NCBI GenBank assembly: GCA_021324825.1
Contig: JAJPII010000047.1
Span: 124,001 to 188,000, forward strand
Direction: 5' to 3'
Origin: Spartobacteria bacterium
Lineage (GTDB): Bacteria > Verrucomicrobiota > Verrucomicrobiia > Chthoniobacterales > Chthoniobacteraceae
DNA: 64,000 nt
Shown: piece after piece, positions 13,164 through 43,064 of the stretch
How the letters are laid out: every line of letters begins with the position of its first letter
Numbering within the stretch: the first letter of the stretch is position 1
Notes under the pieces: model-generated
The model's input: the letters and a program-made list of their open reading frames with translations, nothing else
The model's database searches: none
What the model was told of the DNA's origin: nothing
Program-made: the position numbers and the translations under genes

Positions 13164-13649
13164 GTGAAGAACAATGCGGCTTTCGCCCTTATTTTGCTGG
13201 CATTTGCAGGGTTCGCGCGCGCTTCCGACATCGACATCGTGAGCGCGAACACCCCCCAGACCTACGCCCTCAGCTCGATCGTCTGGAAGCAGTTGCGCTG
13301 GGCGCCCGCCGCCGGCGCGCTGGTCGCCTCGATCACCTTCAGCAATTACGAATACTCCTCGCGCTTTGACCAGCGCGACGAACAGCGGTTCGATTTCGCC
13401 TTCCCCGGCATAACGCTGGATCGCGGAAGCGGGATTTTCTACGCGCGCGATTCGTCCGGCAAGAGCATCCCTGTCGCAAAGCGCACCCACGAATTGTTCT
13501 TCCCCGCGATAGCCCTGCTGCCCGGCGCACAGATCGCCATTATAAAGAACAGCGGAAAAGTGAAAGTCGAGTTGACCGCCAGTTCGCAACCGATCCCCGG
13601 TGGACGCTGGGTCGAACGATCCCGCCAGCAAATCCTGCCCGGGTTCTAA
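13164..13649 (+). CDS. Small secreted protein of unknown function (GTG start)
   Basis: 161 residues from GTG at 13164. Upstream codons in the same frame lack a signal sequence, while this start gives a clean one (KNNAAFALILLAFAGFARA). The mature protein looks like one beta-rich domain (GALVASITFSNYEYSSRFDQRDEQRFDFAFPGITLD, SGIFYARDSSGKSIPVA, GKVKVELTASSQPIPGGRW). I do not recognise a family. It is convergent with the GH130 gene and overlaps its stop by 4 nt. Confidence 0.65.
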   Translation: MKNNAAFALILLAFAGFARASDIDIVSANTPQTYALSSIVWKQLRWAPAAGALVASITFSNYEYSSRFDQRDEQRFDFAFPGITLDRGSGIFYARDSSGKSIPVAKRTHELFFPAIALLPGAQIAIIKNSGKVKVELTASSQPIPGGRWVERSRQQILPGF

Positions 13650-14692
13650 CGCAACGAGGCGAGAATGGCGTCCAGCGACAGCCGCGCCCCGCAGATAACG
13701 CTGTCGGACGCGCCATAGTAAAGCGTGACACAATCCCCATCCACCAGATGCCCGTTTGTGAAAACAACATTGCCGAAAAACCCGGCCCGCTCGTATTCGG
13801 CGACGGGCTCCATGACCGGCTCCTTTGAGCGGGCAAGCACCTTCCAAGGCTCTTCGAGATCCAGCAGCAGCGCGCCGAGGCAATAGCGGTGGCCCGCATC
13901 CGCGCCGTGATAGATTTCCAACCACCCCTCCGGCGTACGGATGGGAGACGCGCCCGCGCCGACGCGAACGCCATCCCACATTCCCGGGCGCGTCCTCGCC
14001 ACGCAACGATGATTCCCCCAATGAACAAGGTCGGGCGACTCCGCCAGCCAGATGTAGTTGCCGCCGATCTCGACACTGCTCGGTCGATGAAGCGCGAAAT
14101 ACCTGCCGCCGATCCGCTCTTCAAAGAGCGCGCAATCCTTGTTATGCGGCGGGAAGATCATCCCCGGCCTGGAAAAAGCGCGCCAATCCGCGGTAGTCCG
14201 CAGACCCACGCCAACCCCGTTGGGCGAGACCTGCGTATACGTCAGGAAGAACGTCCCGTCCATTTCCGCCACGCGGCAATCCTCGATTCCAAAAGACTCC
14301 AGCTCCCCCGCGCCAAAAAGCGGCGTATACGAAGACTCCCCGGCAAAGCGCACTCCATCGACGCTGGAGACGAGCCGAAGATGAGACAGCGTAGTCAGAT
14401 AATCGACGCCGTCATAATGAACAACCCTGGGGTCCGACAGGTCCAGCTTCGGATCCTCCTTGTCGAATTCAAGAATCTCCATGCCTCCCGCCGCCGTCAG
14501 GATCGGGAAAGAAGTCTTGCCCGGCATCTGTCCGGGCCGTTCCGCCACGCGCAAGAGCAGCCATATCCTTCCGTGAAACCGGAAAACGCCGGGATTCAGG
14601 AGACACTCCACCGTCATCCCCGGCGTGCTTGGAAGAACATCCCCCGGCGCGAGAATGGGATTTTCAGGAAACCGTAGAGCGAGATCCGCCAT
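13646..14692 (-). CDS. GH130-type beta-mannoside phosphorylase/hydrolase-like protein
   Basis: 348 residues from ATG at 14692. Five-bladed-propeller glycosidase signatures are visible: FPENPILAPGDVLPS at the N-terminus, ESFGIEDCRVAEMDGTFFLTYTQ with the family ED(P/C)R element, HNKDCALFEE, and RVGAGASPIRTPEGWLEIYHGAD near the end. GH130 enzymes cleave beta-1,2/1,4-mannosides, many by phosphorolysis. The general acid is the Asp in the ED-R region. Whether this one is a phosphorylase or a hydrolase cannot be told without aligning phosphate-binding residues. It ends the core segment, and the tRNA scar starts 7 nt upstream of its start codon. Confidence 0.8.
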   Translation of the reverse strand: MADLALRFPENPILAPGDVLPSTPGMTVECLLNPGVFRFHGRIWLLLRVAERPGQMPGKTSFPILTAAGGMEILEFDKEDPKLDLSDPRVVHYDGVDYLTTLSHLRLVSSVDGVRFAGESSYTPLFGAGELESFGIEDCRVAEMDGTFFLTYTQVSPNGVGVGLRTTADWRAFSRPGMIFPPHNKDCALFEERIGGRYFALHRPSSVEIGGNYIWLAESPDLVHWGNHRCVARTRPGMWDGVRVGAGASPIRTPEGWLEIYHGADAGHRYCLGALLLDLEEPWKVLARSKEPVMEPVAEYERAGFFGNVVFTNGHLVDGDCVTLYYGASDSVICGARLSLDAILASLR

Positions 14693-14698
14693 CAGGAG

Positions 14699-14743
14699 TG
14701 GTCGGGCTGGTGGGATTTGAACCCACGGCCTCTGCGTCCCGAA
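14699..14743 (-). other. 3' remnant of tRNA-Pro(CGG), probable attachment site of a genomic island
   Basis: Read on the minus strand, these 45 nt are the 3' part of a tRNA. The anticodon loop TTCGGGA (anticodon CGG), half-stem CGCAG, variable loop AGGCC, a perfect T arm GTGGG-TTCAAAT-CCCAC, acceptor half CAGCCCG, discriminator A and CCA are all present. The 5' half that should follow to the right (D arm, CTGCG half-stem) is absent: TGGCA stands where CTGCG would pair. Integrases often recombine in the 3' half of tRNA genes, so one end keeps such a fragment and the other an intact gene. The polarity places the island to the right. Confidence 0.85.
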
Positions 14744-14880
14744 TGCCATTTGGCCGTTTTGGACGCATTTCGGCACCAGGGGACATAGGTGGACAATTTG
14801 CGTAATTGATTCGTAAAAAGCAACTTACAGATTATTTCATTTGGTCGCGACTGGACATGGTAGGACTGGATGTTTTTCAC

Positions 14881-14903
14881 CGGGTGCACCTGCGGGTGCA
14901 CCT
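14881..14903. repeat. Tandem duplicate of CGGGTGCACCT inside the island end
   Basis: Two copies of CGGGTGCACCT stand 12 nt apart. Each contains the palindrome GGTGCACC. They lie about 140 nt inside the tRNA scar, in a 240-nt stretch with no gene, a plausible place for integrase or excisionase arm sites. Function is inferred only from position. Confidence 0.4.
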
Positions 14904-14983
14904 AAACCCGCCAATCGAGATCGACACTAACCCGCGTCGCGTATCATCGCAAATAGGCACGGTGAGATACTTGCAAGGCGGAA

Positions 14984-16756
14984 TCACCCACCAAGATGTA
15001 CGTCAACATTGCGCTCCCGGTGAAGCAAAACCCAATCGCCGTTTTCCTCTAGCGCTTCTTTTCCCAAATCAAAAATGGTCTTTATTGCCAATTCGCGATC
15101 ATTTGTCGCCAATGCCTTTTTAAGGCATTCAGATCCCCGCCTGAATAAACTCTGCATTCGTCGGTACTGCTTTTCTTGTTCGCCAACCGCCATCTTCAAA
15201 GAATACGCAGTTATGGCACCCGCCGTCGCCCAGAGAATGGCCATTCCAATTAAAATCAAGCCGTGCAATTCCATTTTATAACGATCAGGCAACCCGTATT
15301 GCCAGGGATGGCTTGAAAGAGCCAGATTAAATCGCCGTCCGAAGCCACCAATTAAAAGAGTGGCTGACGCGATAGCCATGGTTAAAAGCAGAATATAGAA
15401 TGTACAGCACTTTTCAATTTTCTGGCGTCGCTGGTCTCTTTCTGACACCCTCTCAAAAAATCTAAATTGATCTTCAATCCAGCGAGATTGAACGATATCC
15501 AACCGCTCGTTCTCTCGCGGTGTCGTCGTCGCCGCAGCGCTCCAAACACGAATTGCGTTCCTGATCCATCCTAACTCCGTCTTTTGCTTTCTGAGGTAAT
15601 AATCCGCTACTTGCTGTTTAAGGCCCGCAATACGCCAGAATATTTGTAACCGCAGTCCTTCGGCCAAGGCACGGTAGTCTAAATATTTCGTCTTGAATCG
15701 TTCCGGATTTACAAGTTTATAGCTTCCATACGTCACCGCGCAAAGAATTACGTAGCAAAGCAATGCCCAAACCTGAAGCGGTTCCGGTCCATCCGCAAAA
15801 CATTCAAACAAAAAGACGGCTAAAATGCCGCTGCCGAAGATGATAGCGCGCAGAGATCGTTGAGTTAACGTGCGGTAATAAATAGCTAGGGTATCCGTCA
15901 GCGCATAATAATCTATCATCGAGACCATAGAATCACCAAGTTCAATTCGGACCTCTCTTTGAAACAAATGGTCTTTATTTTTCTCGCAGTCTGCTTTTAG
16001 CGTTTTGCCATTTGTGAGGGCGTCCCTATTAAATGCATCCATCCGCCTGTAAATGTTGGCGTAGGAGTTTTCGACTGCTTTTTGAGAGTGATTTGGACAG
16101 CCCCGTTCGCAAAGGCTGTACGGTTTTCCCACAGGCTCGGGATTTCCGATCCTGGGTGTGACGACGTGGAGCACAGGCCCCGTTTCTGGAAAATCAATGG
16201 GGTGGTTTGAATCGATATCTCCGCTGAGTTGCATATGCACGACGGATGATGTGCCTCCCACGAGGCCGCTGTCGACTCCGTCCCACAGCGCTATGAGAAT
16301 TTGACACTGCGTAACCAAATATACAGCGAGATTTTGATATTGGAGGTTTCGCTTATGGTCTTGGGCCTTCGCGTGTTCGACGAGTGTTTCGCCTTGCACC
16401 AACGATAACGTAACGATTCTGCTCGCATTTTGAAGCAGTGCTTTAAATTCATCGCGGGATTCGTTCGTTTTGAAATCGCATTCGTAAAGGGATTTTTCCA
16501 TTGGCAAACACGCTACGACGGGAATATTGAATTCCAAGGCGACCGACGCCACGAGACGGTCTGCACCTTCTGCCAAAGCAGACATCAGTTGGAACGGAGT
16601 AAAGGGGTAGTCTTTTTCGAGTGTATGAAAAATAGTCCGGACCTGTTGTTTCAGTGGTTTGTGATCTTCGCCGCGCAAATCACGATGGCCTGTGACCGCC
16701 AAAACGAGGGGAAGAGGCCCCTTTTCGTCGCGTTTATTCGGGGGATCTGAAAGCAT
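14984..16756 (-). CDS. SLOG-domain protein with SLATT-like membrane segments, probable conflict effector
   Basis: 590 residues. The N-terminal Rossmann-like domain has LVLAVTGHRDL, then LMSALAEGADRLVASVALEF and IPVVACLPME, which is the pattern of SLOG/LSDAT nucleotide-binding domains. Further on are SRIVTLSLV and QCQILIALWDGVDSG. Two membrane-helix pairs follow, at about residues 300-345 (IIFGSGILAVFLFECFA, ALLCYVILCAVTYGSY) and 455-530 (YILLLTMAIASATLLIGGF, LILIGMAILWATAGAITAY). The intervening soluble helix (YRALAEGLRLQIFWRIAGL) resembles the SLATT family. SLOG-SLATT combinations are predicted to sense a nucleotide signal and open a membrane pore in abortive infection. It is the first island gene, with no partner on its strand. 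Confidence 0.65.
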   Translation of the reverse strand: MLSDPPNKRDEKGPLPLVLAVTGHRDLRGEDHKPLKQQVRTIFHTLEKDYPFTPFQLMSALAEGADRLVASVALEFNIPVVACLPMEKSLYECDFKTNESRDEFKALLQNASRIVTLSLVQGETLVEHAKAQDHKRNLQYQNLAVYLVTQCQILIALWDGVDSGLVGGTSSVVHMQLSGDIDSNHPIDFPETGPVLHVVTPRIGNPEPVGKPYSLCERGCPNHSQKAVENSYANIYRRMDAFNRDALTNGKTLKADCEKNKDHLFQREVRIELGDSMVSMIDYYALTDTLAIYYRTLTQRSLRAIIFGSGILAVFLFECFADGPEPLQVWALLCYVILCAVTYGSYKLVNPERFKTKYLDYRALAEGLRLQIFWRIAGLKQQVADYYLRKQKTELGWIRNAIRVWSAAATTTPRENERLDIVQSRWIEDQFRFFERVSERDQRRQKIEKCCTFYILLLTMAIASATLLIGGFGRRFNLALSSHPWQYGLPDRYKMELHGLILIGMAILWATAGAITAYSLKMAVGEQEKQYRRMQSLFRRGSECLKKALATNDRELAIKTIFDLGKEALEENGDWVLLHRERNVDVHLGG

Positions 16757-16778
16757 CGACGTTACTGTTATCCTCAGA

Positions 16779-16814
16779 CTCGGAAAAAGCCGAAGAATTC
16801 GATTCTTTTCCGAG
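16779..16814 (-). promoter_or_regulatory. Inverted repeat just upstream of the SLOG gene
   Basis: Arms CTCGGAAAA (16,779-16,787) and TTTTCCGAG (16,806-16,814) enclose 18 nt, 22 nt upstream of the start codon. It could be an operator or a 5'-leader hairpin that limits translation. No good Shine-Dalgarno is visible before the ATG. The 293-nt gap to the next gene holds no convincing coding sequence. Confidence 0.4.
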
Positions 16815-17049
16815 GGGGGTTAAGACGTTTGCGAAAAACTTCGTCGCGTACATTTGCATGCCGATACTTGATTCAGGCTTTAACAACGCCGATACAGCCC
16901 TCAATGGGCCTACAGGGACTGGTTATTGACCCGAAACAAAGGAGCTTTTCTTCCCAAGGGAAGCAATTCCTTTTTGCCTCGCTTACAAAAGACGAGACGG
17001 AGACTCCCATTATAGGGCGAAAAAAAGAGGTGAAAAAGCACCCTTAATC

Positions 17050-17322
17050 TCACAGATTCTCCTTTGGAGCCGATGTCTGCATTGCCTCGGCCATCTTCTT
17101 CGCGAGCATCGTCGTGTTTTCATCCGTCAGACGCTTCCGAAGATCCCAGACGGCGCAGATAGAGGCAATGAACCAAAGAGGGATTCCGATGGGAGCACCA
17201 ATCATACTCGCAATGCAAACGAGGGCGACGAGGCAACTGATTGTCGTCAGGACGCCCGCGATCCAGCGGCCTTTGATGAAGAAATACAGAGGAGGAAGGA
17301 CTATGGCGACAAGGTAGATCAT
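17050..17322 (-). CDS. Small two-helix membrane protein
   Basis: 90 residues from ATG at 17322; a TTG 45 nt upstream would add a basic head. Two or three hydrophobic segments are present (YLVAIVLPPLYFFI, WIAGVLTTISCLVALVCIASMIG, IPLWFIASICAVWDL), followed by a charged helical tail. The LPPLYFF segment recalls the small YqaE/Pmp3 membrane proteins, but the length and third segment differ, so no family is claimed. Function is unknown. Confidence 0.5.
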   Translation of the reverse strand: MIYLVAIVLPPLYFFIKGRWIAGVLTTISCLVALVCIASMIGAPIGIPLWFIASICAVWDLRKRLTDENTTMLAKKMAEAMQTSAPKENL

Positions 17323-17454
17323 ACGTTTGTGAGGTTTCGGTTGATGCCGTTTTGCAGCGATTTCCAAGAATACTGACTGGGGGTATATTCGACATCAAGA
17401 AATTTCTGCCGCGCTGAAAATGGAGCGCGCCAGCGCACCCCCTCACTTCGGGCC

Positions 17455-17684
17455 ATCGGGCAGAACATCCGGTCAGCCCGTCTTCGGGCGGGTTTGACCC
17501 AGGAATGCGAGGCAGGACTTTGGGGAATCCGCCCGCAGAGCGTGAGCAATATCGAGCGCGGACGACACCCTTTTGGGTGACCACATTCGCTGAGATTTCG
17601 CAGTATCTTGGGACGAGTGCCGATGATTTCCGCTCGGCCTTCAACGCCCGAACAAGAGAGGCGCGAGGATCAAGGAAGGATTAG
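17455..17684 (+). pseudogene. Frameshifted XRE-family transcription regulator
   Basis: From 17,455 one frame reads IGQNIRSARLRAGLTQ, then GIRPQSVSNIERGRHPF, a clear Cro/C1 helix-turn-helix with its SxxS-IE-G motif. It stops at TGA 17,578. The neighbouring frame continues smoothly from there as TTFAEISQYLGTSADDF and ends at TAG 17,684, the usual C-terminal half of such a domain. The shift lies in the run CCCTTTTGGG (17,568-17,577). The start is unclear because no ATG is in frame. One indel in a homopolymer-rich spot could be a true lesion or a sequencing error. Confidence 0.7.
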
Positions 17685-17862
17685 CAAGGCGGCGGAGCCC
17701 GTCGGTGCCTTGAGCCGTTTTGTCCTCTGACTAGCGCCCTGACCGTCCCCTGGCCACCCTTTGGATAAAATAGACACCATTTTCCAACTGGCTCCCCAAC
17801 TGGCTCTAATTAATCGACTTCGTTGGAGGAATCGCTTGCCTTTTCTTCGGAGCGAAGAGTAA

Positions 17863-18555
17863 ATGTTGAAGATGCACGCGAAACAAATTTGTATTATGAC
17901 ATTAACGTTAATGGTTCGGTCGAGCTATGCCGATATCGTGGAAGTTACAAAGACCGAGCAATCGACAGGATTCAATCAAATGGTTTCGATGACAACGAAA
18001 AAGATCAAAGGCGATTTCATTCGGATTGAGACGAGAAGCGACCCTGAGAGGCCCACTGGCATGGAGGTTCACATCGAAAACAACAGGACAGGCGAGGACA
18101 TTATCCTCTGGCCCGTTAGCAAAACCTATAAAGTCAAGCGGAAGAGCGATGAAAAGGAGGGGATGGAAATGACGGTGCAGAGTCTCAAAAAGACCGGGGT
18201 GATTACGGCCGTGAGGCCCTTGCTTGAGCCCACCGGCAAGTCCGAGATGATGAATGGATACCAAGCAGATATCTACACGTGCGCTATCCCTTCGCGTACG
18301 AGCACTTATTGGTTAGCCCAGGATTTGGCGAAATTTGTTCCCTTACTGGCCGCTTCGCATAAGCTGACGAACACCCCCATCGAAAAACAATTGCCCGATC
18401 CCGCCACCTTTCCGGGAGTGCCGGTGCATACGGTTCTGGAGCAATCCATTGGCGGATTGAAGGTAACCGTCACGACCGACTTGGTTTCGCTGAAGGAGGA
18501 GAATCTCAGTGATTCAGAATTCCAGGTGCCGCCAGATTACAAAAAAGTGAAGTAG
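17863..18555 (+). CDS. Secreted DUF4412-like protein
   Basis: 230 residues. The N-terminus is a signal-peptide-like segment (KQICIMTLTLMVRSSYADI). The mature part has the layout of outer-membrane or lipoprotein-carrier-like DUF4412 proteins. A motif of the type GDFIRIETRS comes first, then ENNRTGEDIILWPVSKTYKV. GYQADIYTC and STYWLAQDL follow (a disulphide or ligand loop), then LKVTVTTDLVSL and a C-terminal SDSEFQVPPDYKKV. The last motif is typical of proteins that report modification of a lipoprotein or periplasmic state. Its role next to defence genes is unclear. Confidence 0.5.
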   Translation: MLKMHAKQICIMTLTLMVRSSYADIVEVTKTEQSTGFNQMVSMTTKKIKGDFIRIETRSDPERPTGMEVHIENNRTGEDIILWPVSKTYKVKRKSDEKEGMEMTVQSLKKTGVITAVRPLLEPTGKSEMMNGYQADIYTCAIPSRTSTYWLAQDLAKFVPLLAASHKLTNTPIEKQLPDPATFPGVPVHTVLEQSIGGLKVTVTTDLVSLKEENLSDSEFQVPPDYKKVK

Positions 18556-18560
18556 GAGGC

Positions 18561-21500
18561 CTATCTCCCTGACGGTTCGCCGCCGATCAGTCCGTCTTCA
18601 CTCAACCGCCACGGGTCCCTTTGCCGGACGAGGGCGCTGATCTCCATTGGGGATCGCATCTCCAGAGGCAGGCGAATCACGATGACCGCTCCGATGCCTT
18701 CATCCGTCCTGATAGCGGCTTCCCCGGATTCACTGGCGATGGTTAAAATAGAATGTTCGTCCGGGCTAAATGTGGCTTTCAGGCCCGAGAATCGAGCGAG
18801 CTGTTCAGCATGAAGAACGTCCCATATGACGACGCCCTCCGGCGTGGCGGTCAAGGCGAGGGCACCATCCCGGCTAAGTTCGAACGAATCTACGAAAGTG
18901 GCTCCGCATTGAAGAGTGGCCAGCAACCGCCCGTCGTGCGCGGCCCAGATTTTGGCTGACCCATCCCCTCCCGCTGAGATTACGCGCGAACCATCGGTGT
19001 TGAAACTCGCGTCCAGCATCGCAAAGGAGTGGCCCGCGATGTCCGCGATCAGTTTCCCGCTTTTCACCTCCCAAACCTTTCCGGATCCCCCGTCTATCGT
19101 AAAAATGAATTTCCCATCCGGGCTGAAAACCGGCGCGCCCGTCTGGTTGGGTCCTTTTCCGGATGAGAGCAACCTCCCGGCCATCTTACCCGACGCGGCA
19201 TCCCAGAGGATGACCGTATGGTCTGGGGCGACCGTGGCGATTTTTTTTAAATCCGGGCTGAATACGGCATCGGTAGCCAAGTGTTTGGCAGCGTGGAGGG
19301 AAAGAATGGTGCGGCCGCTGCCGGAATCGTAAATGACGGGATCGAAATCTTTGGCGGCTACGATGAACTTCGAGCCATCGGACGAGAAATGGACGGCTGT
19401 GCCGTCGACGGTAGCGATGACTTGGCCGCTCGCAGCATTCCAGAGGCGAACGCGGTTATGGCCCACGGCGGCAGCGAGGCGGCCTCCATCCCGATTCATG
19501 GCGAGCCGCAGCACGTATAAATCCGGTGTGGCGATCCTGCGCATCAGCCGGTTCGTTTCGGCGTCGAAGATGCAGATGGTGTCGAAACTCGCTGTCACGA
19601 TTTGCCGCCCGTCTCTGCTATAAAAAGCCTGCGACACAGGCTTGTCCGATCCGCCGCTGGGAAGCCGGTCCGGCATGTTTGGGTTCCAGAGTGACACGAT
19701 GCCCGACCCGCTCAATGACGCGATCCAGCAACCATCGCGGCTGATGTCGAGAATGCTCACGTCACTCTTCAAAGGGCCGGCCTGTCCTTGGGGCTGAAGG
19801 GTAAAAAGTGGGCTTCCGGTGGCGGCGTCCCAGATGCGCGAAGTGCCGTCCCAACTCGTGCTGATGATCCGGCGTCCATCCGCTGTCACCCGCGCGTTGG
19901 TAACGGTGTCCGTATGCCCGCTTAGTGTAGCAACGACTTTTGGTGAGAGGGCGTCGCGAATGATGACGGTATTGTCCGGCCCCAACGAAACAAACAGCAC
20001 CTTATCACCGTTCTCGCCGAAAAACGCTTGGCAAACGCGTTCCGATGAATTGTTCGTAGCGACCTTCCGGCCGCTGGCGCAATCCCAGACCACGACATCT
20101 CGATGGAAGGTCGTGGTAACCAAGTGCTTAGCGTCAGGACTCAGAACCGCATCAAGCACGCTGTCCCCGGCATCCAAAGAAAGAAGGGCCTTTCCAGTTT
20201 GCGCGTCCCAGATTTTGACAGAGCCGTCCGTGCTGGCGGTCACGATGCGGGAGGCGTCGCGGCTGAAAAAAGCAAGAACGACGGAAGCTTCATGGCCACG
20301 GAGAGTCAGCAGCAGCGAACCGGTTTCCGTATCCCAGACCTTCGCGGTATTATCCACGCTCGCCGTGATGGCGCGACGGCTATCTGTGGAAAAACGGGCG
20401 CTTTTAATGTCCATCTCGTGGCCCTGGAGTCTTTGCAGAATGCGGCCAGTTCCCGCATCGAGGATCCATGCATTTCCCTCGTAGCTGGCGATGACGCGGC
20501 GCCCGTCGAGACTCAATGCCAGATGCTGGATCGAAGGCAGCGCGGGGTCCAACGGGACGACGGTCCGGCCGGTTGCCACGTCTCGAAAGGCCGCAGTCCC
20601 ATCCGTATAGGAAACCAGCAATCGCTTTCCATCCGGGCAGAAGGATACGTTTTTGATGCCCTTGCCATTCCCCGAGAAAGAGGTACTCTTCGCATCCAGC
20701 GGCTCCGTAGCACGCGCCAGCAAGAAGCGCAACGCCGGCCGAGTATCGCCCAAGGAGTAGGCTTCACTCAGATAAGGTAGAGCTCGCAGCCCGTCCCCTG
20801 CTAGAAGTTGCTGCCGCCCGTGATCGATGTCCCGTTCGATCAGTGCCGCACGAGCCTGGCGGATTTTTGCCTGTTCCTGGATCTCCCAGAGACTGAGACC
20901 GGCAAGGCAAACGACTGATGCCAAAGCGCTCCATTGCAAGCGACGCCGCTGGGTGCGCCTGCGTTCCCGCTGCCTGAGATCGTCGTAATTGACACCCAAG
21001 ATGCCGGCAATGAGCTTGAGTCGGGCGTTCGCACGCCCATCTTGACCCGGGCGCGCATCTGCGGCGATGGGTTCGGAGCGCTGATCCGTCAGCCGTCCAT
21101 CCGATCCAAGGTGGTAACGGAGCGCCTCCCCAAAACATTCCTGCGACTCGCTTTCCGGGCGGTCTGCTGCGTTCGGTTCGCCGTCCACGATGAGGCAGAG
21201 CACGCGGTCTTCGCGGCCAAAGGACTTAAATTGAAGAATCTCTTCTTTAACCCATCTCGAATGCGCCGAGCGGGGAGAACAGATAACGATGAGAAATCGC
21301 GACTGCCGAAGCGCTTCTCTTAACTGGGCTCCAAGATCGGCGGACGTCGGCAACTCCTCGCGATCCCGGAAGACCGGAAAGATTCGCGGGGGCACTTTGC
21401 CGTGGCGTGACGCCGTTCCGACCAAACGTCTCGGAACGCGATAGGTTTCCAAAGCGCGGTGCAACCAATCACCCCAGGTTTTGTCCGTATGGCTGTAGCT

Positions 21501-21623
21501 GATAAAGGCGGCGTATTTGAAGTCCCCGTTGATTTGCGGCTGCGGCGTTTGAGGGAACTCCATGCTGGTCGAACTGGCGATTTCGGGCGTTAGTCTCTTT
21601 ATTAAACGACAACGTAAGTTCAT
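18561..21623 (-). CDS. TIR domain fused to a membrane helix and WD40 propellers
   Basis: 1020 residues from ATG at 21623; an in-frame ATG at 21563 is an equally possible start. The TIR domain spans about residues 35-165: KYAAFISYSHTDKTW, FPVFRDREELPTSADL, SRFLIVICSPRSAHSRWVKEE. A short helical region and one membrane helix follow (LQWSALASVVCLAGLSLWEI, about 230-250). The rest is roughly a dozen WD40-type blades (VKIWDAQTG, VWDTETG, IWDAATG, LWNAASG). TIR domains of this type can hydrolyse NAD+ or make cyclic ADP-ribose signals, and the propeller would sense a partner at the membrane. There is no adjacent SLOG/ThsA gene, so this is not a Thoeris locus. Convergent with the DUF4412-like gene. 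Confidence 0.85.
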   Translation of the reverse strand: MNLRCRLIKRLTPEIASSTSMEFPQTPQPQINGDFKYAAFISYSHTDKTWGDWLHRALETYRVPRRLVGTASRHGKVPPRIFPVFRDREELPTSADLGAQLREALRQSRFLIVICSPRSAHSRWVKEEILQFKSFGREDRVLCLIVDGEPNAADRPESESQECFGEALRYHLGSDGRLTDQRSEPIAADARPGQDGRANARLKLIAGILGVNYDDLRQRERRRTQRRRLQWSALASVVCLAGLSLWEIQEQAKIRQARAALIERDIDHGRQQLLAGDGLRALPYLSEAYSLGDTRPALRFLLARATEPLDAKSTSFSGNGKGIKNVSFCPDGKRLLVSYTDGTAAFRDVATGRTVVPLDPALPSIQHLALSLDGRRVIASYEGNAWILDAGTGRILQRLQGHEMDIKSARFSTDSRRAITASVDNTAKVWDTETGSLLLTLRGHEASVVLAFFSRDASRIVTASTDGSVKIWDAQTGKALLSLDAGDSVLDAVLSPDAKHLVTTTFHRDVVVWDCASGRKVATNNSSERVCQAFFGENGDKVLFVSLGPDNTVIIRDALSPKVVATLSGHTDTVTNARVTADGRRIISTSWDGTSRIWDAATGSPLFTLQPQGQAGPLKSDVSILDISRDGCWIASLSGSGIVSLWNPNMPDRLPSGGSDKPVSQAFYSRDGRQIVTASFDTICIFDAETNRLMRRIATPDLYVLRLAMNRDGGRLAAAVGHNRVRLWNAASGQVIATVDGTAVHFSSDGSKFIVAAKDFDPVIYDSGSGRTILSLHAAKHLATDAVFSPDLKKIATVAPDHTVILWDAASGKMAGRLLSSGKGPNQTGAPVFSPDGKFIFTIDGGSGKVWEVKSGKLIADIAGHSFAMLDASFNTDGSRVISAGGDGSAKIWAAHDGRLLATLQCGATFVDSFELSRDGALALTATPEGVVIWDVLHAEQLARFSGLKATFSPDEHSILTIASESGEAAIRTDEGIGAVIVIRLPLEMRSPMEISALVRQRDPWRLSEDGLIGGEPSGR

Positions 21624-21971
21624 CTTCTGAACGCGTCGAGCCTTTCATCCTAAAACGTCGAGATTCATTCGCGCCCGCCAAGAAATCAGAACATTACAAC
21701 CCTAAATTGTCACTTCGCTTTTGAGTGGGTAAAATCTCTCCTTTTTTGAAGCAGAACTCCACTCATGCATGTCCCTTGTCCAGGGTCAGGCCAGAGGGGT
21801 GGTAAAGAAGGGCCCGCGATCCCCTCGGCTGAAACACCGCTCCCGCCAAACGCCAGCCAGGAATCCCCCTTCGCAAGTTTACCACGGCGCCCAGCGAAAC
21901 ATTGCTCCACATACGGAGCCATTGTCGCGAGCGGAAAGCCTCAGTTTTGTGCCCAGAAAAGCACAAGACTC
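21624..21971. other. Intergenic region with a long imperfect inverted repeat ahead of XRE gene 1
   Basis: 348 nt without a credible gene. GTGGTAAA (21,799-21,806) pairs with TTTACCAC (21,878-21,885). After a 5-nt bulge the pairing continues between GAAGGG and CCCTTC. The structure lies 87 nt upstream of a small XRE gene and could be an operator or transcript hairpin. It also contains the divergent promoter region for the TIR-WD40 gene. Confidence 0.35.
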
Positions 21972-22250
21972 ATGAAATTCAGAAACATCATTGGACCTCA
22001 ATTGCGCAAGCTTCGCTACGCACGTCACTGGTCTCAAAGCAAACTCGCGATCAAGCTGCAATGCGCCGGATGGGATGTCTCCCGCAGCACCGTGTCAAAG
22101 ATCGAAGCACGGCTCAAATTCGTTCTGGATTTCCAACTGGAGTATTTGACGAACGTAATGAATGTTGAATTGAAGGAGTTGTTCCCCGCGCAGATGGCTC
22201 GGGAAACAGTGCATGATCGACTTGAACGGCTGATGAACAGCAGGTTCTGA
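21972..22250 (+). CDS. Small XRE-family regulator, copy 1
   Basis: 92 residues from ATG at 21972; the frame stays open upstream but that part is not protein-like. The whole protein is one helix-turn-helix of the Cro/C1 type: IGPQLRKLRYARHWSQSKLA, then GWDVSRSTVSKIEARLKFV, where the recognition helix has S-STVSKIE. The C-terminus (VLDFQLEYLTNVMNVEL) matches the capping helix. It is related to the XRE gene at 23,136 (shared GWD-SRS-VSKIE). It may regulate neighbouring defence genes. Confidence 0.8.
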   Translation: MKFRNIIGPQLRKLRYARHWSQSKLAIKLQCAGWDVSRSTVSKIEARLKFVLDFQLEYLTNVMNVELKELFPAQMARETVHDRLERLMNSRF

Positions 22251-22397
22251 CACTTGGTATCCCTGCAAGTCGATCCGCATGGGGCAACCCCGGGCCAGAA
22301 CCTGGAACGGCAAAAAATCGTCGCCAGTGGCTCGGCATTGAAATAGCCTGGGTAAGAAATCGGGCCAGTGAACTGCCCCCCTTGGTCGCTGAATTAA

Positions 22398-22733
22398 ATG
22401 AAGTCACCAACCATAGAATCCTCCTTCAAGCTTCTCCGCGCTATCGAGGGGCTCTTGCAGTGCGCAGAGATGCAGAGAGATGACGTCTCGGAAGCCACTC
22501 ATCAACTCATCGACGGAGTCCTAGAGGCCGCCGCGCAGGTGAAAAGGGAATGCGAGTTCCCAGAACGCAGGGAGATCATTGAATTCTTCGCAAAGCGCTT
22601 TGCCGAGGAAGACCGGGAAACGGTGGTGAAGCGAATCGTGGCCTTGGTCGGCACTCTTTCCAATGAGGAGTTGTACGCCGGCTTTGAAGAAGCTCGGGAG
22701 ATGGATAGCGGTCTCGACCAGGGCCGGGCGTGA
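22398..22733 (+). CDS. Small acidic helical protein of unknown function
   Basis: 111 residues, nearly all helix and strongly charged (LLRAIEGLLQCAEMQRDD, HQLIDGVLEAAAQVKRECEFPERREIIEFFAKRFAEEDRETVVKRIVALVG). No family is recognised. It lies between the two small XRE genes on the same strand and may belong to their transcription unit, although the gaps (147 and 402 nt) are long. Confidence 0.5.
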   Translation: MKSPTIESSFKLLRAIEGLLQCAEMQRDDVSEATHQLIDGVLEAAAQVKRECEFPERREIIEFFAKRFAEEDRETVVKRIVALVGTLSNEELYAGFEEAREMDSGLDQGRA

Positions 22734-23053
22734 CCGGTTGGTCGCCCGCCTCTGCGCTCGGCTCCGTTCAAGGGCCAGATTATCTGGCGGAACCCGCCTT
22801 GGCTAGGACATCCCTACGCAAGTGCGGCGGTCCAAGCCGCTTAAAAGCCTGAGTAACTCACTCGCGGTCATCCAAGCCGCCCGGAAATACCCCGGTTCGA
22901 TGTCCTTGCCGCTTCCTGCGCCATAAGACCTAGCGTCAGTGCCCTTCGGAATGAATACGCCGAATTCCGTTCGAGGAGCCTTGCATCCAGCTTCCCAAAA
23001 TCCGCCCCTGCCGTGGGGCTTCCATTCAAAAAGCGCGTGAGTGTCCCACCGGG

Positions 23054-23077
23054 AAATTGCCACCAGGTGGGCAATTT
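23054..23077. promoter_or_regulatory. Palindromic operator-like site upstream of XRE gene 2
   Basis: AAATTGCC (23,054-23,061) and GGCAATTT (23,070-23,077) form a perfect 8-bp inverted repeat with an 8-nt spacer, 58 nt before the start of the XRE gene. This is the size and symmetry expected for a dimeric Cro/C1 regulator, so autoregulation is a reasonable inference. It lies in a 402-nt gap (22,734-23,135) where I see no other supported feature. Confidence 0.5.
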
Positions 23078-23135
23078 GCATGCGCTGTGCAGTTGTGCCG
23101 CTGCTGGGCATGGGGCGTTCACCCCTTGGACGGGC

Positions 23136-23417
23136 ATGGTTTACAAAAATGTCGTCGGTCGCCTCGTTGCCCGGATCAGATACGACCGCAGTCTATCGCA
23201 GGCGGGTCTGGCGAGAGAATTGCAGAAAGCGGGATGGGACATCAGCCGCAGCGAAGTATCCAAGATTGAAGGGCGGATACGGGAAGTAAAGGATTGGCAG
23301 ATGATGTTCCTGGTGCGCGTTCTCGACGCGCGGCACGAGTCATTCTACCCCAAACTCGACGAGAAGGAACGATTCTCCGACGCTTTCCACAAACTCATGC
23401 ACAAAAAAACGTCATAG
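23136..23417 (+). CDS. Small XRE-family regulator, copy 2
   Basis: 93 residues from ATG at 23136. The frame runs open to 23,013 but the extra residues lack protein character. The helix-turn-helix is VGRLVARIRYDRSLSQAGLA followed by GWDISRSEVSKIEGRIREV. It parallels copy 1 almost position by position (GWD, SRS, VSKIE, then a basic segment and V-DFQ/V-DWQ), so the two are diverged paralogues. The C-terminal tail is Lys-rich. A palindrome at 23,054-23,077 is a likely binding site. Confidence 0.8.
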   Translation: MVYKNVVGRLVARIRYDRSLSQAGLARELQKAGWDISRSEVSKIEGRIREVKDWQMMFLVRVLDARHESFYPKLDEKERFSDAFHKLMHKKTS

Positions 23418-23529
23418 CAGGTCTGGTTGTTGCCGACCAAAAGGAGGCTGCGTCTGAATTCCGCAACCCGCCGCGGCGGCTGCCATCTCCCACGCATTTC
23501 ATGGATGGAATCCTTGCCGACCACCATCG

Positions 23530-23862
23530 CTTCTCCGCGTGAATCCTTAAGCGCCTCTTGTCTTCGGCGAGCGAGCACGGTCAAGGTGGAGATCGGCGGT
23601 GCGAAGGTGGGGGCGATTCTACCTTGACGGCGCACAGCGAGCCATATAATCGAGGCGCGATTCACGCGAACCGGTCGGCCTTTGAAAATTCGCGCGTTAT
23701 GCGCTGAGAAATGAACGGCGTGATCGCCGAAACGGGATGTGGCCGCGCAGCTTGCGGAGCGGCGACATCATTCGGGGGCGGGAAGGGAGCGCAAAGTCTT
23801 TGGCTTCAGAGCGCGCCAGCCGCAACGAAGTGGTGGAGCCAAAGTCTTTGCGCAGGGGAGGA
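23530..23862. repeat. 0.33-kb structured repeat, copy A
   Basis: The segment is clearly homologous (roughly 80-85% by eye) to 50,706-51,050. It carries nested inverted repeats. Outer arms are CGCGTGAATC/GATTCACGCG (23,536 and 23,659) and GCGCCTC/GAGGCGC (23,551 and 23,652). An inner arm TCAAGGT/ACCTTGA lies at 23,581 and 23,621. A second hairpin pairs GCAAAGTCTTTGGCT (23,787) with AGCCAAAGTCTTTGC (23,837). Both copies sit immediately downstream of the last gene of a large minus-strand defence operon. No protein reading frame is shared beyond a short MNGVIAET stub. Confidence 0.75.
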
Positions 23863-23907
23863 ATTATTTGAAAGCTCTCCCCTGAAACATGGCTTTCGCT
23901 GCCTGTT

Positions 23908-26900
23908 CTATGCGTTGAAGTCCCGCTTGATCAGTAGCCCTTCCCCATCCACCGCTACTTCTTCAACGGAGCCGTCTTTGAAAATGACGCAGAAGCGGGT
24001 CTCGGAAATCCTCACGAAGCTGGTGATTTCTTGCTCGAAATAGATGTGTGAAAAGAAAGTCCCCTTAAAAGGGTCCACCAGGCAAAGGCCAAAATGATGG
24101 AAAGAGTCTTCGCCGCGGGGTACCGTCACACCCACTAAGAATGAGCTATTGTTCAAGCTATAGGCAGCCAGCGAGGAGAGCTTGTTGTGGTTTGCAACTG
24201 TGGGGTGAAATTTCTTTTCGGCTACATCGATCCAACCGACCAAGCCTTTGACCCAATCTATCAACACCACTTTGTTCAACCACTCAAATGGAACGCCACG
24301 CTGAATGTGGTAACCCTCGGAACGCTCGGGCATGGCATCCCTTTCAAAACTCTGCCAGGAATCTTTCTTCAAATCCCATAAACCAAGTCGGTCACCAGAC
24401 TGACTCGGGAGCACCATCCAGCTTCCTGAAACTGCAAAATTTTCCGATTGCAACTCAAAGGAATCGACATTTCGGATTTTGCTGATTTTTCGTTCAGCAA
24501 GGTTGATATGAACAAGAATGTTCGGATAGGCGGAACCTACCGCTTCACCGGGAACATCAGGACGGGCGCACACCATTCCCCAGCGCTTCTGATGTGCGGA
24601 AGACATCGGCGTCTCCGAATTTTCCAAACGATGGTTTTTATTCTCAGTTTCCCATGAAGGTCCCACAATGATTTCTTCCCAATTAATCTCAGGATGCCGC
24701 TTGATAAGATGCGTCCGGAAAAGGAGCTTTCCGGTTGCCTTGCAAACTTCATCCAGGACAAAACCTTGACGAGGTACCCACAATACCTCCGCATCAAGAA
24801 GAGGTATGCCGCTATATTTCCCAAGGAGGTCAACCTCTCCATCGATGGTGCCCCTCACGAGATCGGGTCCATCAAGCTTTAGAATTTCCCACTCCAGCGA
24901 ATCGTAAAAAAACTCGTGCCAATCAGGATTGCGATCCTGCTGGCTCACTGCCACTTCGCGTAAACCCACAGCGACAGGCAACGGGTCCAGTTCTTCATTC
25001 AGCGAGAATCTTGGGGTGTCCATTATCACGTCTGAACTAACAGATCGGCAAAGATCCACCACACTGAACGCTTCGGTATCGGTCCGGACCATTAGAAAGC
25101 GTCCGTCGATTGTGAAAACCAGGCATGGAGTTGGACCAGGAACCTCAGCGCCGGCTTTGCACAGAACGTAGCCAATCAATTGACCAACCTGGACATCAAA
25201 TACTCGCAGTTCGCCATTCCTCTCCAAAATGGCGAGCATACGGCCGTCTGCCGAAAAGGCCGCCACCGCCTCCGCTGAAACATCCGAAAAGCGTCTAAAT
25301 ACCTTTCCGCTGGAAAGCTCATAGAGTTGCCTACGGAGGTAAAAAAAGCGACCGCTCGGCGAAATGATGAAGTTCCTCGGTTTGTCGTCCGATTCAGGAT
25401 AGTTTCGAATGGCCGACCATGACGCTTGCCCGCGATATTGGAACTCCGCGATTGGAGTCCAAAGCTCGAAGCTTCTGTAGTCCAGAAAGACAGCGAATGC
25501 ACCGAACTCTGTCAGTCTCGCACCGATAAGCTCCTCCCCGGTGGGCGGATCGCAAAGCGCCACGTTTTTGGCCATGTCTATGTAGTGGTAACGGGGGCCA
25601 CAAATGGCGTGAGTGAATTCGGGGTTGACAGCGGCTAAATTTGACTTTTCCGGGACATTGAGGTCATTTGCGATACCATCCCAACGCACAATTTGCATTT
25701 TGTTGTCCACCGAGGCGATTAATTGTCCGCCATCTCCGCTTAAAGCGCAGAGATAGACATCTTTTGCATCAGGGAGTGAAAGCGTTCGCACCACACGATT
25801 CTCCAGCCAATTCCACAAGACCAGAGTTGGCGGCAGCGGAGAACGCCGTTCACGAGGCTCGGCGTAAGCCAGTAATGGCGCCATCGAGGCAAATTGAAAG
25901 GAGTGGTTCCATTGCCTGTGAATGATCTCCCCATAAAAATGATGCTTCCGGCCGGGATTGAGTCTGGATAGAAAGGGGCCGGTGTCCTCAGCAAGGAGTT
26001 GCCGTGCTCTGAGTAGGAGTGAAGAGGTTTTAAGCATGCCGGAATTGAAGATGCACATAGCCAACGCTTTGTCTAAAAAGTCCGGGAGGGCTGAGATTTC
26101 ATCCAGAGCGGTGCGTGAGGATTTCAGGAAAGATTCAAACTCCCAGAGAGCCTTGGCGGATTGGTCTATGGGAATCTCTGACTCGATTCCCCCCAACGCG
26201 TCGTTGTAAGAAATGTACACACGTCTTATAGCCTGTAGTGCCTTGCTGGTGTCGAAAACTCCTTTGAACCAATCATCGGGAAGCGGGCTACGCAGCCGCT
26301 CCTTTTCCTCCACCTCGGCCTTTTCCTGATATTCAAACAGTTCGCGCGCCTCTTTTCTGGTCAATCCTCCCAATATATCAAGTTCTTCTTCGTCCTCTTT
26401 ATCGATGTATCCGGATTCGCGAGCCTCGCTTTCGCATTTTAGAGACTCTGCCCACTCTTCCAAGCGTAAGTTTCGCTCTCCAAGCACACGGCGATCCTCG
26501 TGATTTGGAGCAGCATGCAAATCGAACGACGAGCGCAGAACCTGAAGGCTTTCATCTTCCATCAACTCAAGGCACGTTGCTTGAAATTCGGATATCCTTT
26601 TCGCACGCAGAATCCAGACGAGGAATTCCCAGTCCTCACAAAGACTCACCAGCGTTTTCACCAAGCTCTGTCTACGCGGTGCTGTAGTTTCGTGGTCACC
26701 CGATTTTGCCCGGTGATAGCAATGCGCGATAAAAGGCAGCAATGAGGAGGTCTTAAGATCATCGCCACGCCAGTCAGTGAGCCAAGTTTCCAATCGCGAT
26801 TCGGCCGCAGTGGTCAGTTGGCTTCCTCCCTCACGCGATAGAAGAAAATCCGCCACTCGTTCGTGATAGAGGGTCAACGCCTTCCGAGTCGTTCGGATGA

Positions 26901-28755
26901 ACGACGCACATGCTTTGAGAAATCGCGTGACCCTTTGCCGCTCCCAGCCGAGGATTTGCGCAAGTTGCTGCTCGTCCAACGGATTTGGCGAACAAGCCAG
27001 AACATAGAGCAGAAGGGCTTTCTCTTCCCGGCCAAAGCGCTGCGTTAGGTGAAGATGAACCTGGTCACTCAGATCTTCAAGCGACGGTAGCAATGAAGGT
27101 TGTGCTCGGTGGATCAACCACAGAATCTCATCAATGCGCTTGGTCTGTTCCTGCAGTTCCGCCTCGGATGACAAGGATGCGAGAGCCGGATCCAATATAC
27201 CCGCCCAGTAATCATTCAGAGCCGCGGGCAGGGATTCGATGTCCTTCCGAGTTTTTCTACCTTCTGAAACCTCTTTTAAAACCGATTGCACGTAGAGAGG
27301 CAATCCACCTGTCTTTTTGACGAGTTGTCGACTGTCCCCATCTGTCCATCCCTGATTCCATGCTTCGTACTTTTGTGCAACACTTCTGACTTCCTCGAAA
27401 CTCATACCGCCCGCAGCAAAAGGAATGTAGTGGTCGCGCGCGGCGTTTTGAAAAGGTCGCTCCAAATGGGGCTGCCCCGCAATAAGGACGCGAAGAGACT
27501 GCGGGCCAACCGATTTGGCCATTTCTCGGATCAGCGCCTCCGCTTCTCCCGAGGTTTCCATTTCATCAAGCCCATCTATGAAAATCCAGAGATCATTTTG
27601 CGACGATTCCAGATAGCGGGTGATGGTATCGCCCAGTTTAGATGCGGGCTCGCCGACTGGCAAATGCGCACGAAGTTGAGCGATTAGATTCTTTTCGGCG
27701 GCTGCGGCGCTTGAAATGCCGCTGACCCGTCTGGAGCAAAAATGCCGCAATACTACAGCGGACGTTTTCGAAGCGGGGTCTTGCTCAAGCTCGACTATCA
27801 ATTGACAGACAAGGCTAGTTTTGCCAATACCAGCCTCCCCGTTTAGCCAGATGATCTTTCCTTTGTTGTCGGACAGTGCTTGACGGATTGAGTTCAAACT
27901 CTGGGTCCGGGTGACGTACGGAGAGCTGGGGTCTCTGAAATCGCTGCGGATGGCGATCATCTCGTCGAAGGTCATGGCCGGTCCATCCACCTCGAAAATC
28001 TGATTGAGACTCTGAACAATCCAGGTATCAGCCACGGGAGAGAAAGATGCGCGCCCGCCGCCTTGTCCATGATCCACAAACGAGGGAGTGCTTTCTCTGA
28101 AATCGTTGAAAACGTAAATGCCGACCGTTTCATCCCGTTCGACCTTGGCCACCAGCCATGGAAAGAGGTCTATTTCGCCCGCATTCCACTTCAGATAAAC
28201 CCGCCCCCATTCCGGCCTGGACGTGGCGGACTGCTGCTTCGGCTCAATCACAAAGGCTAGTGCACGTTTTGAGAAATTATCGAGGAGGCCTGTCACAACT
28301 TTCCTGAGTTGCTCCGTTTTCTGCACAAGTTCCGCACGGGCTGGAGTAGCTTCATGAGCATTGCGGTTGCGAATTTCCGAAAGACCGGCAGTCCATTTCT
28401 TGAAGTCCGCGTTGAATAGTGAATCCAGAGCCAATACGTGAAATTGTTCCCGCAGATCAATACATTTGCCCCAGTCTCCCAAAGTGGCGGTTTTGAGTTT
28501 TTTGACCGTGGCCTCGTAATTTATTTTCTGCTCCGGAGCGGAGAAAGGTCGATTGCGGATGATGCTGAGAACGAACGCCGCCTGCGCCTTGAGACAGAAC
28601 TCGCCAAGATCGAGCAGCAGATTTAGTTGCCAAAGAAGGTCCTTCTCATCCCGCAATCTTTGAGCAATCTGACGGAAAGTAACCACGTCACTCACCTCCA
28701 AAGTTTTAACGAGGTCTTCTGTTGCTTGGGAGTCTGGCGCCATATCTCCGTTCAT
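23908..28755 (-). CDS. HEPN-NACHT STAND protein with C-terminal propeller
   Basis: 1615 residues from ATG at 28755, chosen because AAGGAG lies at good spacing; an ATG 27 nt upstream is possible. Residues 1-190 form a helical domain containing the HEPN RNase motif R-NRNA-H (SEIRNRNAHEA). The STAND NTPase follows, with Walker A NGEAGIGKTSLV (about residue 310), Walker B DLWIFIDGLDEM, then winged-helix and helical regions. The last 650 residues are repetitive beta strands with WD40-like spacing (VLWNWLENRVV, LIASVDNKMQIVRWDG). The architecture is that of antiviral STAND sensors: the propeller binds a viral trigger, NACHT oligomerises and the N-terminal effector cleaves RNA. It lies 71 nt after the HD gene and is likely co-transcribed with it. 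Confidence 0.85.
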   Translation of the reverse strand: MNGDMAPDSQATEDLVKTLEVSDVVTFRQIAQRLRDEKDLLWQLNLLLDLGEFCLKAQAAFVLSIIRNRPFSAPEQKINYEATVKKLKTATLGDWGKCIDLREQFHVLALDSLFNADFKKWTAGLSEIRNRNAHEATPARAELVQKTEQLRKVVTGLLDNFSKRALAFVIEPKQQSATSRPEWGRVYLKWNAGEIDLFPWLVAKVERDETVGIYVFNDFRESTPSFVDHGQGGGRASFSPVADTWIVQSLNQIFEVDGPAMTFDEMIAIRSDFRDPSSPYVTRTQSLNSIRQALSDNKGKIIWLNGEAGIGKTSLVCQLIVELEQDPASKTSAVVLRHFCSRRVSGISSAAAAEKNLIAQLRAHLPVGEPASKLGDTITRYLESSQNDLWIFIDGLDEMETSGEAEALIREMAKSVGPQSLRVLIAGQPHLERPFQNAARDHYIPFAAGGMSFEEVRSVAQKYEAWNQGWTDGDSRQLVKKTGGLPLYVQSVLKEVSEGRKTRKDIESLPAALNDYWAGILDPALASLSSEAELQEQTKRIDEILWLIHRAQPSLLPSLEDLSDQVHLHLTQRFGREEKALLLYVLACSPNPLDEQQLAQILGWERQRVTRFLKACASFIRTTRKALTLYHERVADFLLSREGGSQLTTAAESRLETWLTDWRGDDLKTSSLLPFIAHCYHRAKSGDHETTAPRRQSLVKTLVSLCEDWEFLVWILRAKRISEFQATCLELMEDESLQVLRSSFDLHAAPNHEDRRVLGERNLRLEEWAESLKCESEARESGYIDKEDEEELDILGGLTRKEARELFEYQEKAEVEEKERLRSPLPDDWFKGVFDTSKALQAIRRVYISYNDALGGIESEIPIDQSAKALWEFESFLKSSRTALDEISALPDFLDKALAMCIFNSGMLKTSSLLLRARQLLAEDTGPFLSRLNPGRKHHFYGEIIHRQWNHSFQFASMAPLLAYAEPRERRSPLPPTLVLWNWLENRVVRTLSLPDAKDVYLCALSGDGGQLIASVDNKMQIVRWDGIANDLNVPEKSNLAAVNPEFTHAICGPRYHYIDMAKNVALCDPPTGEELIGARLTEFGAFAVFLDYRSFELWTPIAEFQYRGQASWSAIRNYPESDDKPRNFIISPSGRFFYLRRQLYELSSGKVFRRFSDVSAEAVAAFSADGRMLAILERNGELRVFDVQVGQLIGYVLCKAGAEVPGPTPCLVFTIDGRFLMVRTDTEAFSVVDLCRSVSSDVIMDTPRFSLNEELDPLPVAVGLREVAVSQQDRNPDWHEFFYDSLEWEILKLDGPDLVRGTIDGEVDLLGKYSGIPLLDAEVLWVPRQGFVLDEVCKATGKLLFRTHLIKRHPEINWEEIIVGPSWETENKNHRLENSETPMSSAHQKRWGMVCARPDVPGEAVGSAYPNILVHINLAERKISKIRNVDSFELQSENFAVSGSWMVLPSQSGDRLGLWDLKKDSWQSFERDAMPERSEGYHIQRGVPFEWLNKVVLIDWVKGLVGWIDVAEKKFHPTVANHNKLSSLAAYSLNNSSFLVGVTVPRGEDSFHHFGLCLVDPFKGTFFSHIYFEQEITSFVRISETRFCVIFKDGSVEEVAVDGEGLLIKRDFNA

Positions 28756-28826
28756 CGCGGTCTCCTTGTCTCGGATGGGCATGCATTAAGGAGACTGAAT
28801 GGTTTCACTTGGACATTTTCTCGTTA

Positions 28827-29687: not shown

Positions 29688-29857
29688 GGGCCTCCACGCT
29701 ACACGCCGATTATCCCTGTTTGCACGAAAAATGAGGGGGACCGGTCTCGCTGTCAAAGACCTCCGATACAGCCGCTTCGGACAGTTCACATTCTCAAGCC
29801 TGCGGAGGCGATCCGATTTCGGCGCGGACGATCCGCTTTAAAGGGTGCCAATCGGGC

Positions 29858-31881: not shown

Positions 31882-31955
31882 GCCTTTCCTCCTGCGCGAG
31901 CTTGGCACCGCTAAACTTTCGAGGGTGTTATGCGCTACTTGTTTATGCAAAGGGC

Positions 31956-37627: not shown

Positions 37628-37813
37628 ACTGAGGGTTCAGAGATGCCGCACATCGATAAAGTAGGCCCTGCCTTGCAGGCGGCTTGCGAGCGGCTTTAGC
37701 GCGAGAGATCTCTTTGCTGCCGGTGGACCAAGGAGCGAGTGGCCGTGGGGTGCGCGGTGAAACGCAGGGCGTCTTGCGCGGTCGTTGGTGTTCACAGAAT
37801 GGTTAAAGCGTGA

Positions 37814-39777: not shown

Positions 39778-39791
39778 ATAGTGTCTCGGGG

Positions 39792-40739: not shown

Positions 40740-40860
40740 GATCGCATTATAGCCCATGGGGTTGGACATCCGCAGTCCATGCCCACAAATTCATGTCAAA
40801 AAGATGAATTTTTGTCGGATGGGGCCGCAAATCGGGAATACTTTAATGAGAGGACTCCGT

Positions 40861-42920: not shown

Positions 42921-43064
42921 GTGCGTTTTTATGGATGGAACGGAAAACCGGCTTTTCCACTCAGATTACAATCCAAACACAAGCTTTCGGATAGGCTTTG
43001 CACTCAACGGCAGAAACTACTGCCCGGACGCCGGGCGCGAGAAAACAATCGGTTTTACTTCAAT

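Follow-up and report, generated by a model that had tools for sequence, protein, structure and literature searches.

A displaced tRNA-Pro(CGG) 3' half bounds a 101-kb element, most likely integrative and conjugative, in a Spartobacteria genome

Genomic islands that integrate into tRNA genes commonly leave a fragment of the target gene at their far end. In the Islander collection, 3,760 of 3,919 islands leave 3' fragments and 159 of 3,919 leave 5' fragments, and a class with an anticodon-centred crossover is described there (PMC4383910). A crossover in the anticodon loop is presented as usual for tRNA integrases in a review of archaeal integration, according to which targeting of the 5' half is seldom met in bacteria (PMC8371274). 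The element described here shares with the Islander islands an intact tRNA at one end and a fragment at the other, an integrase between them, the correct orientation, a length within 2-200 kb, an apparently anticodon-centred crossover, and a 3' fragment (PMC4383910); nothing essential in the account of these islands sets it apart, and its oddity is an integrase from a family that otherwise leaves 5' fragments. The pTN3-like archaeal integrases use the tRNA 5' half, and relatives of the present integrase likewise restore a 5' half; in contrast to the pTN3-like enzymes, the family considered here is bacterial and the present element restores a 3' half (PMC8371274). Its transfer genes resemble those of the F/R388-like MOBF elements, with which it shares a TrwC/MobF relaxase-helicase, a TrwB coupling protein, a TraC-type VirB4, and homologues of VirB9 and VirB10.

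The window analysed is a stretch of 64,000 nucleotides (C3:124001-188000) from a 3.30-Mb genome in 47 contigs, and coordinates beyond its end are given on contig C3 or on the scale of the window. The earlier note on this DNA had described a tRNA-Pro(CGG) fragment running from the start of the anticodon loop to CCA, with a perfectly paired T-arm and a missing 5' half, as the end of a large integrated element. Our reading of the sequence agrees: on the minus strand, 14699-14743 comprises the 7-nt anticodon loop TTCGGGA (with the CGG anticodon), CGCAG, the variable loop, the T-stem, the acceptor strand, and CCA, and the T-stem pairs perfectly (GTGGG/CCCAC). ARAGORN called no tRNA gene anywhere in the window, so the 5' half is absent at this position. 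When the whole genome was searched for the 45-mer with up to three mismatches, two places were recovered, both exact and on the same strand (C3:138699-138743 and C3:239678-239722), against none in the control; a chance match was rejected on this basis. An Rfam tmRNA match at 14699-14779 was also rejected: its 17.1 bits fall below the gathering score of 47, and it reflects a tRNA-like 3' end aligned to tmRNA.

The second copy of the 45-mer, 101 kb farther right on contig C3, lies within an intact tRNA-Pro(CGG) called by ARAGORN (C3:239678-239754), in the polarity that the earlier note had predicted for a gene beyond 64 kb. The exact repeat is 47 bp long, as it continues for two bases past CCA, and identity stops at tRNA position 32, just before the anticodon loop. 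Because the two repeat copies are located at C3:138697-138743 and C3:239676-239722 (window-scale 115676-115722 for the second), the element measures 100,979 bp with one repeat copy counted. A search for further complete tRNA-Pro(CGG) genes in this genome found none; two other matches, at 80% and 77%, presumably represent other tRNAs. The contig stops 754 bp past the intact tRNA-Pro.

A tyrosine recombinase had been predicted beside the intact tRNA, and an integrase ORF of 383 codons (C3:238442-239593; PF00589, E 1.3e-10) is present 84 bp from it, for which the ATG at codon 8 is the more likely start, judged from the sequence. Adjoining the integrase is a small, excisionase-like HTH_17 protein (3.8e-09). 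The intact tRNA at one end and the fragment at the other thus share a strand and face the correct side, with the integrase inside and near an end, and the repeat pair, the tRNA, and the integrase together bear out the interpretation of the fragment as the end of a large integrated element. With very high confidence, we regard the fragment as the host's own 3' half of the sole tRNA-Pro(CGG) gene found, displaced to the far end of an element that is most likely a Verrucomicrobiota integrative and conjugative element (ICE). Coordinates of the principal features are collected in Table 1.

Table 1. Features of the left part of the element, its adjoining chromosome, and selected features beyond the window (window coordinates unless stated otherwise).
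Feature	Position	Strand	Remarks
GH130-type mannooligosaccharide phosphorylase gene, first chromosomal gene left of the element	13649..14692	-	PF04041 9.6e-49
Left 49.3 kb of the element	14697..64000	.	runs on to window-scale 115722 (C3:138697-239722)
Displaced tRNA-Pro(CGG) 3' half, left attachment-site copy	14697..14743	-	tRNA positions 33-77 plus 2 bp; exact 47-bp repeat
Anticodon loop TTCGGGA, putative 7-bp crossover (overlap) region	14737..14743	-	identity between the ends begins exactly here
Paired direct repeat GGGTGCACCTGC-GGGTGCACC, candidate arm-type sites	14882..14902 (C3:138882-138902)	+	21 bp
Partner repeat GGGTGCACCTGCC-GGGTTCACC	C3:239586-239607		22 bp; just upstream of the integrase ATG
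HmaC-like gene (DUF499 / Swt1-HEPN)	51079..54393	-	PADLOC HmaC 1062 bits
Argonaute-associated SIR2 (Aga_SIR2)	54686..55783	-	PADLOC 5.9e-55
Prokaryotic Argonaute (Piwi domain)	55771..58029	-	PF02171 2.7e-13; PADLOC pAgo_II 1.5e-58
HmaB-like methylase (DUF1156)	58045..60930	-	PADLOC HmaB 1103 bits
TmtA-like/sacsin-type gene, 3' part	63241..64000, on to window-scale 67425	-	PADLOC TmtA 7.6e-52
HmaA, outside the window, adjoining the TmtA-like gene	window-scale 67422-70964		PADLOC 1621 bits

To the left of the fragment are a type II secretion cluster, a porin, and the GH130 gene, whose ATG is 6 bp from the CCA of the fragment, and to the right are mobile and defence-like genes. The change in gene content that had been proposed at 14.7 kb therefore stands, while the accompanying change in composition is real but occurs in two steps, the drop beginning ∼3.7 kb before the fragment: G+C is 0.651 over C3:118-135 kb, 0.595 over 135-138.7 kb, 0.498 in the first 3.7 kb to the right of the fragment, and 0.560 over the whole element. 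The intermediate segment with the porin and GH130 genes (window 11000-14700), at whose left edge G+C falls from 0.65 to about 0.60, is perhaps an older acquisition. As a synteny probe, the GH130 gene was recovered from 5 of 57 genomes (its own included, in a set holding no genome of the same genus), and no tRNA was found at the 10 loci of the 4 other genomes.

In the intact tRNA, the anticodon stem and loop read CTGCG-TTCGGGA-CGCAG, an inverted repeat around a 7-bp centre. We infer a crossover within the anticodon loop, since identity between the element ends starts there and the displaced 5' halves left by related elements (see below) finish at positions 38-40. The paired direct repeats inside the two ends are probably arm-type sites of the integrase: their common pattern has two matches in 3.30 Mb, one inside each end of the element, and none in the control. 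In the end-versus-end comparison alone, the paired repeat of the 101-kb element is weakly to moderately significant (p 0.027, 300 shuffles). Across the elements tested, a paired repeat with 12-13-bp spacing is the best segment common to both ends in seven of eight (six of seven relatives); the G008 element fails this test (p 0.69) and that of G006 gives a weak result (p 0.05). Many single regions upstream of related integrases are without a significant repeat pair.

We compared the orientation of the target tRNA across 36 distinct integrase loci (39 loci minus the duplicates L140, L158, and L149). The count leaves out seven partial integrase matches (L029, L032, L034, L035, L036, L039, and L040), two of which, L035 and L036, likewise have an upstream tRNA with its 5' end facing the integrase; L020, L022, and L023 coincide with L139, L142, and L143, and L077 and L079 duplicate L139 and L142. 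At 27 of the 36 loci, an intact tRNA (for Ala, Val, Arg, Ser, Met, Asn, or Pro) lies within 500 bp and has its 5' end towards the integrase, and at L152 (G166) tRNA-Pro(CGG) itself is in this arrangement. The 3' end faces the integrase at a single locus (1/36), that of the present element. The remaining eight lack an intact tRNA in this interval: at the G006 locus there is a 3' fragment, at G001 (L025) a match to the 3' part of tRNA-Gly, at G051 (L024) and G085 (L160) broken tRNA-Val matches, and at four none of these.

Displaced 5' halves are located on the same contig in five genomes, namely G052 (tRNA positions 1-39), G017 (1-40), G005 (1-39), G008 (1-40), and G051 (1-38), and elsewhere in the genome for L078 (G058; another contig, positions 1-41, 98%) and, more weakly, L080 (G059; 1-41, 90%). 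None was found for L076 (G057), G034, or G027, where contigs end soon after the integrase or were read in part; the query for G060 was a different isoacceptor only, and that for G026 was the tRNA-Arg of G017. Together, the 27 loci and the displaced 5' halves indicate that the relatives bring a new 5' half, presumably with its promoter, so that their tRNA is presumably expressed from element DNA. The present element departs from this pattern, as the 3' end of its tRNA faces the integrase and a 3' fragment is displaced. The only stretch common to the 3' fragment here (positions 33-77) and the 5' fragments of the relatives (1-38/40) lies in the anticodon loop, supporting a crossover at that place in either polarity. 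Small elements of ∼2-28 kb with integrases of the same family (L116, L119, L134, L137, and L138) also displace and restore the tRNA 5' half.

An independent element of ∼23 kb is integrated in tRNA-Pro(CGG) in G006, a member of the same family as the host, and its integrase is ∼45% identical to the present one. The ends of this element are marked by a 3' fragment at C152:13921-13967 and an intact tRNA at 36950-37026; both ends carry the paired repeat, and the integrase lies by the fragment. A stray tRNA-Pro(CGG) 5' half on another contig of that genome (G006:C91:50057-50097; positions 1-41, 95%) may mark one end of a 5'-type element inserted in that tRNA gene. In G053, a full tRNA-Pro-like match (C48:25717-25793) and a part match covering positions 26-74 (C48:46342-46389), 20.6 kb apart on the same strand, are a possible further tRNA-Pro island. 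In the integrase tree, the present integrase pairs with that of G026 (87/95), and the G006 integrase falls in a clade with the 5'-type G005 and L078 (98/96). These placements suggest, with support that is weak overall, that the arrangement with a 3' fragment originated on more than one occasion. Searches for homologues of the integrase in phages and IMG/VR found none, and among plasmids only two weak Klebsiella matches.

The active site of this integrase is unusual. Y353, R319 (the second Arg), K257, and H342 (of the Gly-His motif) are conserved in 20 of 20 aligned integrases, while Gly232 occupies the position of the first catalytic Arg and Arg316 that of the first catalytic His. Of 36 distinct sequences, 32 have both replacements and four have the standard Arg and His; in the larger alignment, the Lys column is unstable, the second Arg is replaced by Lys in L160, and L148 is cut short. 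IntCTnDOT, in which the first Arg is missing from its usual place, and IntDes, in which it is shifted and the first His is replaced too, are similar exceptions (PMC8138268), and GinC is described as being without the first catalytic Arg (PMC5385486). Given the exceptions IntDOT and IntDes, membership of the tyrosine recombinase superfamily is compatible with Gly232 and Arg316 (PMC8138268). The Gly/Arg exchange may reflect one event on the tree, and our guess, taken from the exchange itself, is that Arg316 would assume the role of the first catalytic Arg.

The element encodes a relaxase that carries an HLHSHC motif and a Walker A motif (TrwC 3.2e-83; NCBIfam MobF 227 bits, cut-off 100), a coupling protein (TrwB_AAD_bind 4.8e-11) with Walker A, a VirB4-type ATPase (P-loop_TraG 2.1e-07) with Walker A, homologues of VirB9 (CagX 1.5e-04, below cut-off) and VirB10 (TrbI 1.5e-16), and a ParA-like ATPase. 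Unlike in the F/R388-like elements, the VirB4 here scores under the NCBIfam cut-off (82 bits against 567), and the closest plasmid VirB4s, on plasmids of Opitutaceae TAV5 and Termitidicoccus, are ∼30% identical. Counterparts of VirB6, VirB8, and VirB11 and an oriT were sought in the element and none was identified; no PDB match was obtained for a VirB8-like protein or for the integrase. A short hydrophobic protein (C3:222098-222418) looks like a VirB2-type pilin, and its residues 41-106 are 91-95% identical in the modules at L083, L088, L089, and L084 (in G025, G009, G052, and G004), where VirB4 identity goes down to 65%. The MOBF relaxase, the coupling protein, the VirB4, VirB9, and VirB10 homologues, and the excisionase-like protein together make an ICE the most likely identity of the element. 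Self-transfer is likely from this gene complement, and is graded no higher because several VirB components lack names.

The unnamed secretion components, as well as cargo that splits the conjugation cluster (e.g., an SLFN/AlbA-Fic-like gene between the coupling protein and VirB4), could instead point to an integrated 101-kb island that has lost the ability to conjugate unaided, either a decayed ICE or a mobilisable element in need of a helper. This alternative appears rather unlikely, as the relaxase, coupling protein, VirB4, VirB9, and VirB10 frames are open and have their catalytic or Walker A motifs where these were looked for, and the gene order of the module is conserved in other genomes. 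Of the 56 other genomes searched, 13 have a VirB4 homologue (41-87% identity), and the module order is kept, as far as the contigs were read, in all four of the other order-level genomes examined (G025, G009, G052, and G004), so that the conservation extends over different families of the order. No integrase of the present family was found within the 47-64 kb read around these four modules; thus the module does not always accompany this integrase and pairs with different ones, and the 101-kb element could be composite. The edges of the modules in G052, G025, and G004 were not located by tRNA fragments. The occurrence of relatives' modules apart from this integrase, like the large cargo, would also fit a tandem accretion of at least two elements at tRNA-Pro, with the inner boundary lost, rather than one mobile unit; we regard this as improbable, since the genome has no third tRNA-Pro fragment, no third arm-like pair, and no second integrase of the family (E 1e-20). 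A tRNA pseudogene that arose by chance or decay, unrelated to any element and with a coincidental match near the contig end, can be dismissed as the nature of the fragment: these genomes do contain lone tRNA pieces (e.g., the stray 5' half in G006), but here the 47-bp identity is exact and begins at a position typical of tyrosine integrase recombination, the polarity, integrase, and arm-like repeats at both ends agree, and the two-place arm-like pattern refutes it for practical purposes.

The cargo of the element is rich in defence-like genes. From 51079 to window-scale 70964, the gene order is HmaA, the TmtA-like gene, two others, HmaB, Argonaute, SIR2, and HmaC, such that the Argonaute and SIR2 pair between HmaB and HmaC constitutes one defence system nested inside an Hma-type operon. 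By the integrase end, a helicase partly like HamB (of Hachiman) and a 323-aa partner (C3:233189-237675; window-scale 109189-113675) might be a Hachiman-like pair. A 1755-aa helicase with a methylase-like part (C3:201296-206563) has a 73% identical counterpart in a different family of the order (G052:C14:384996-390143), also near a conjugation module. Other cargo comprises a WD40 protein of 1020 aa (window 18561-21623), a NACHT-type protein of 1624 aa (window 23908-28782), and two M54-type metallopeptidase genes within ∼8 kb of sequence (window 30358-31035 and 37814-38557).

For the preferred reading, in which a single ICE integrated at tRNA-Pro(CGG), we propose the following mechanism. The attP of the circular element would have carried a copy of the tRNA 3' half, from the loop to CCA. 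At the chromosomal gene, the integrase would have bound the inverted repeat of the anticodon stem as core sites; the paired 9-bp direct repeats to either side of attP would have served as its arm sites, and strands would have been exchanged across the 7-bp anticodon loop. This would have joined the host 5' half and its promoter to the 3' half of the element, forming the present intact tRNA-Pro, and moved the host's own 3' half 101 kb away, to its place in the window. The HTH_17 excisionase-like protein beside the integrase probably drives excision, and the MOBF relaxase, the TrwB-type coupling protein, and the system containing VirB4, VirB9, and VirB10 probably transfer the excised circle. In a broader reading, to which we give an even chance, a Verrucomicrobiota clade of tyrosine recombinases, with Gly and Arg in place of the first Arg and His, would use the palindromic anticodon stem-loop of many tRNAs as its core in either polarity. 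Nearly all of its members would bring a 5' half and promoter, and the 101-kb ICE, with its core reversed, would bring a 3' half, such that one family could switch halves; the Arg at the first-His position would replace the catalytic Arg.

The island itself is a textbook tRNA integration of a familiar kind. In a limited search of titles and abstracts, no dedicated description of such elements in the Verrucomicrobia literature was found, and a limited search of the literature on 5'-half targeting found this integrase family not described. Its relatives make it more informative: in this bacterial integrase family, replacement of the tRNA 5' half predominates, a paired arm-like repeat is conserved at both ends of the elements, and the active site is unusual. 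In addition, exact bounds are now set for a conjugative carrier of several defence-like genes in the Verrucomicrobiota. As the mirror-image exception within its family, the present element offers a direct test of what sets the polarity of integration at a nearly symmetric core.
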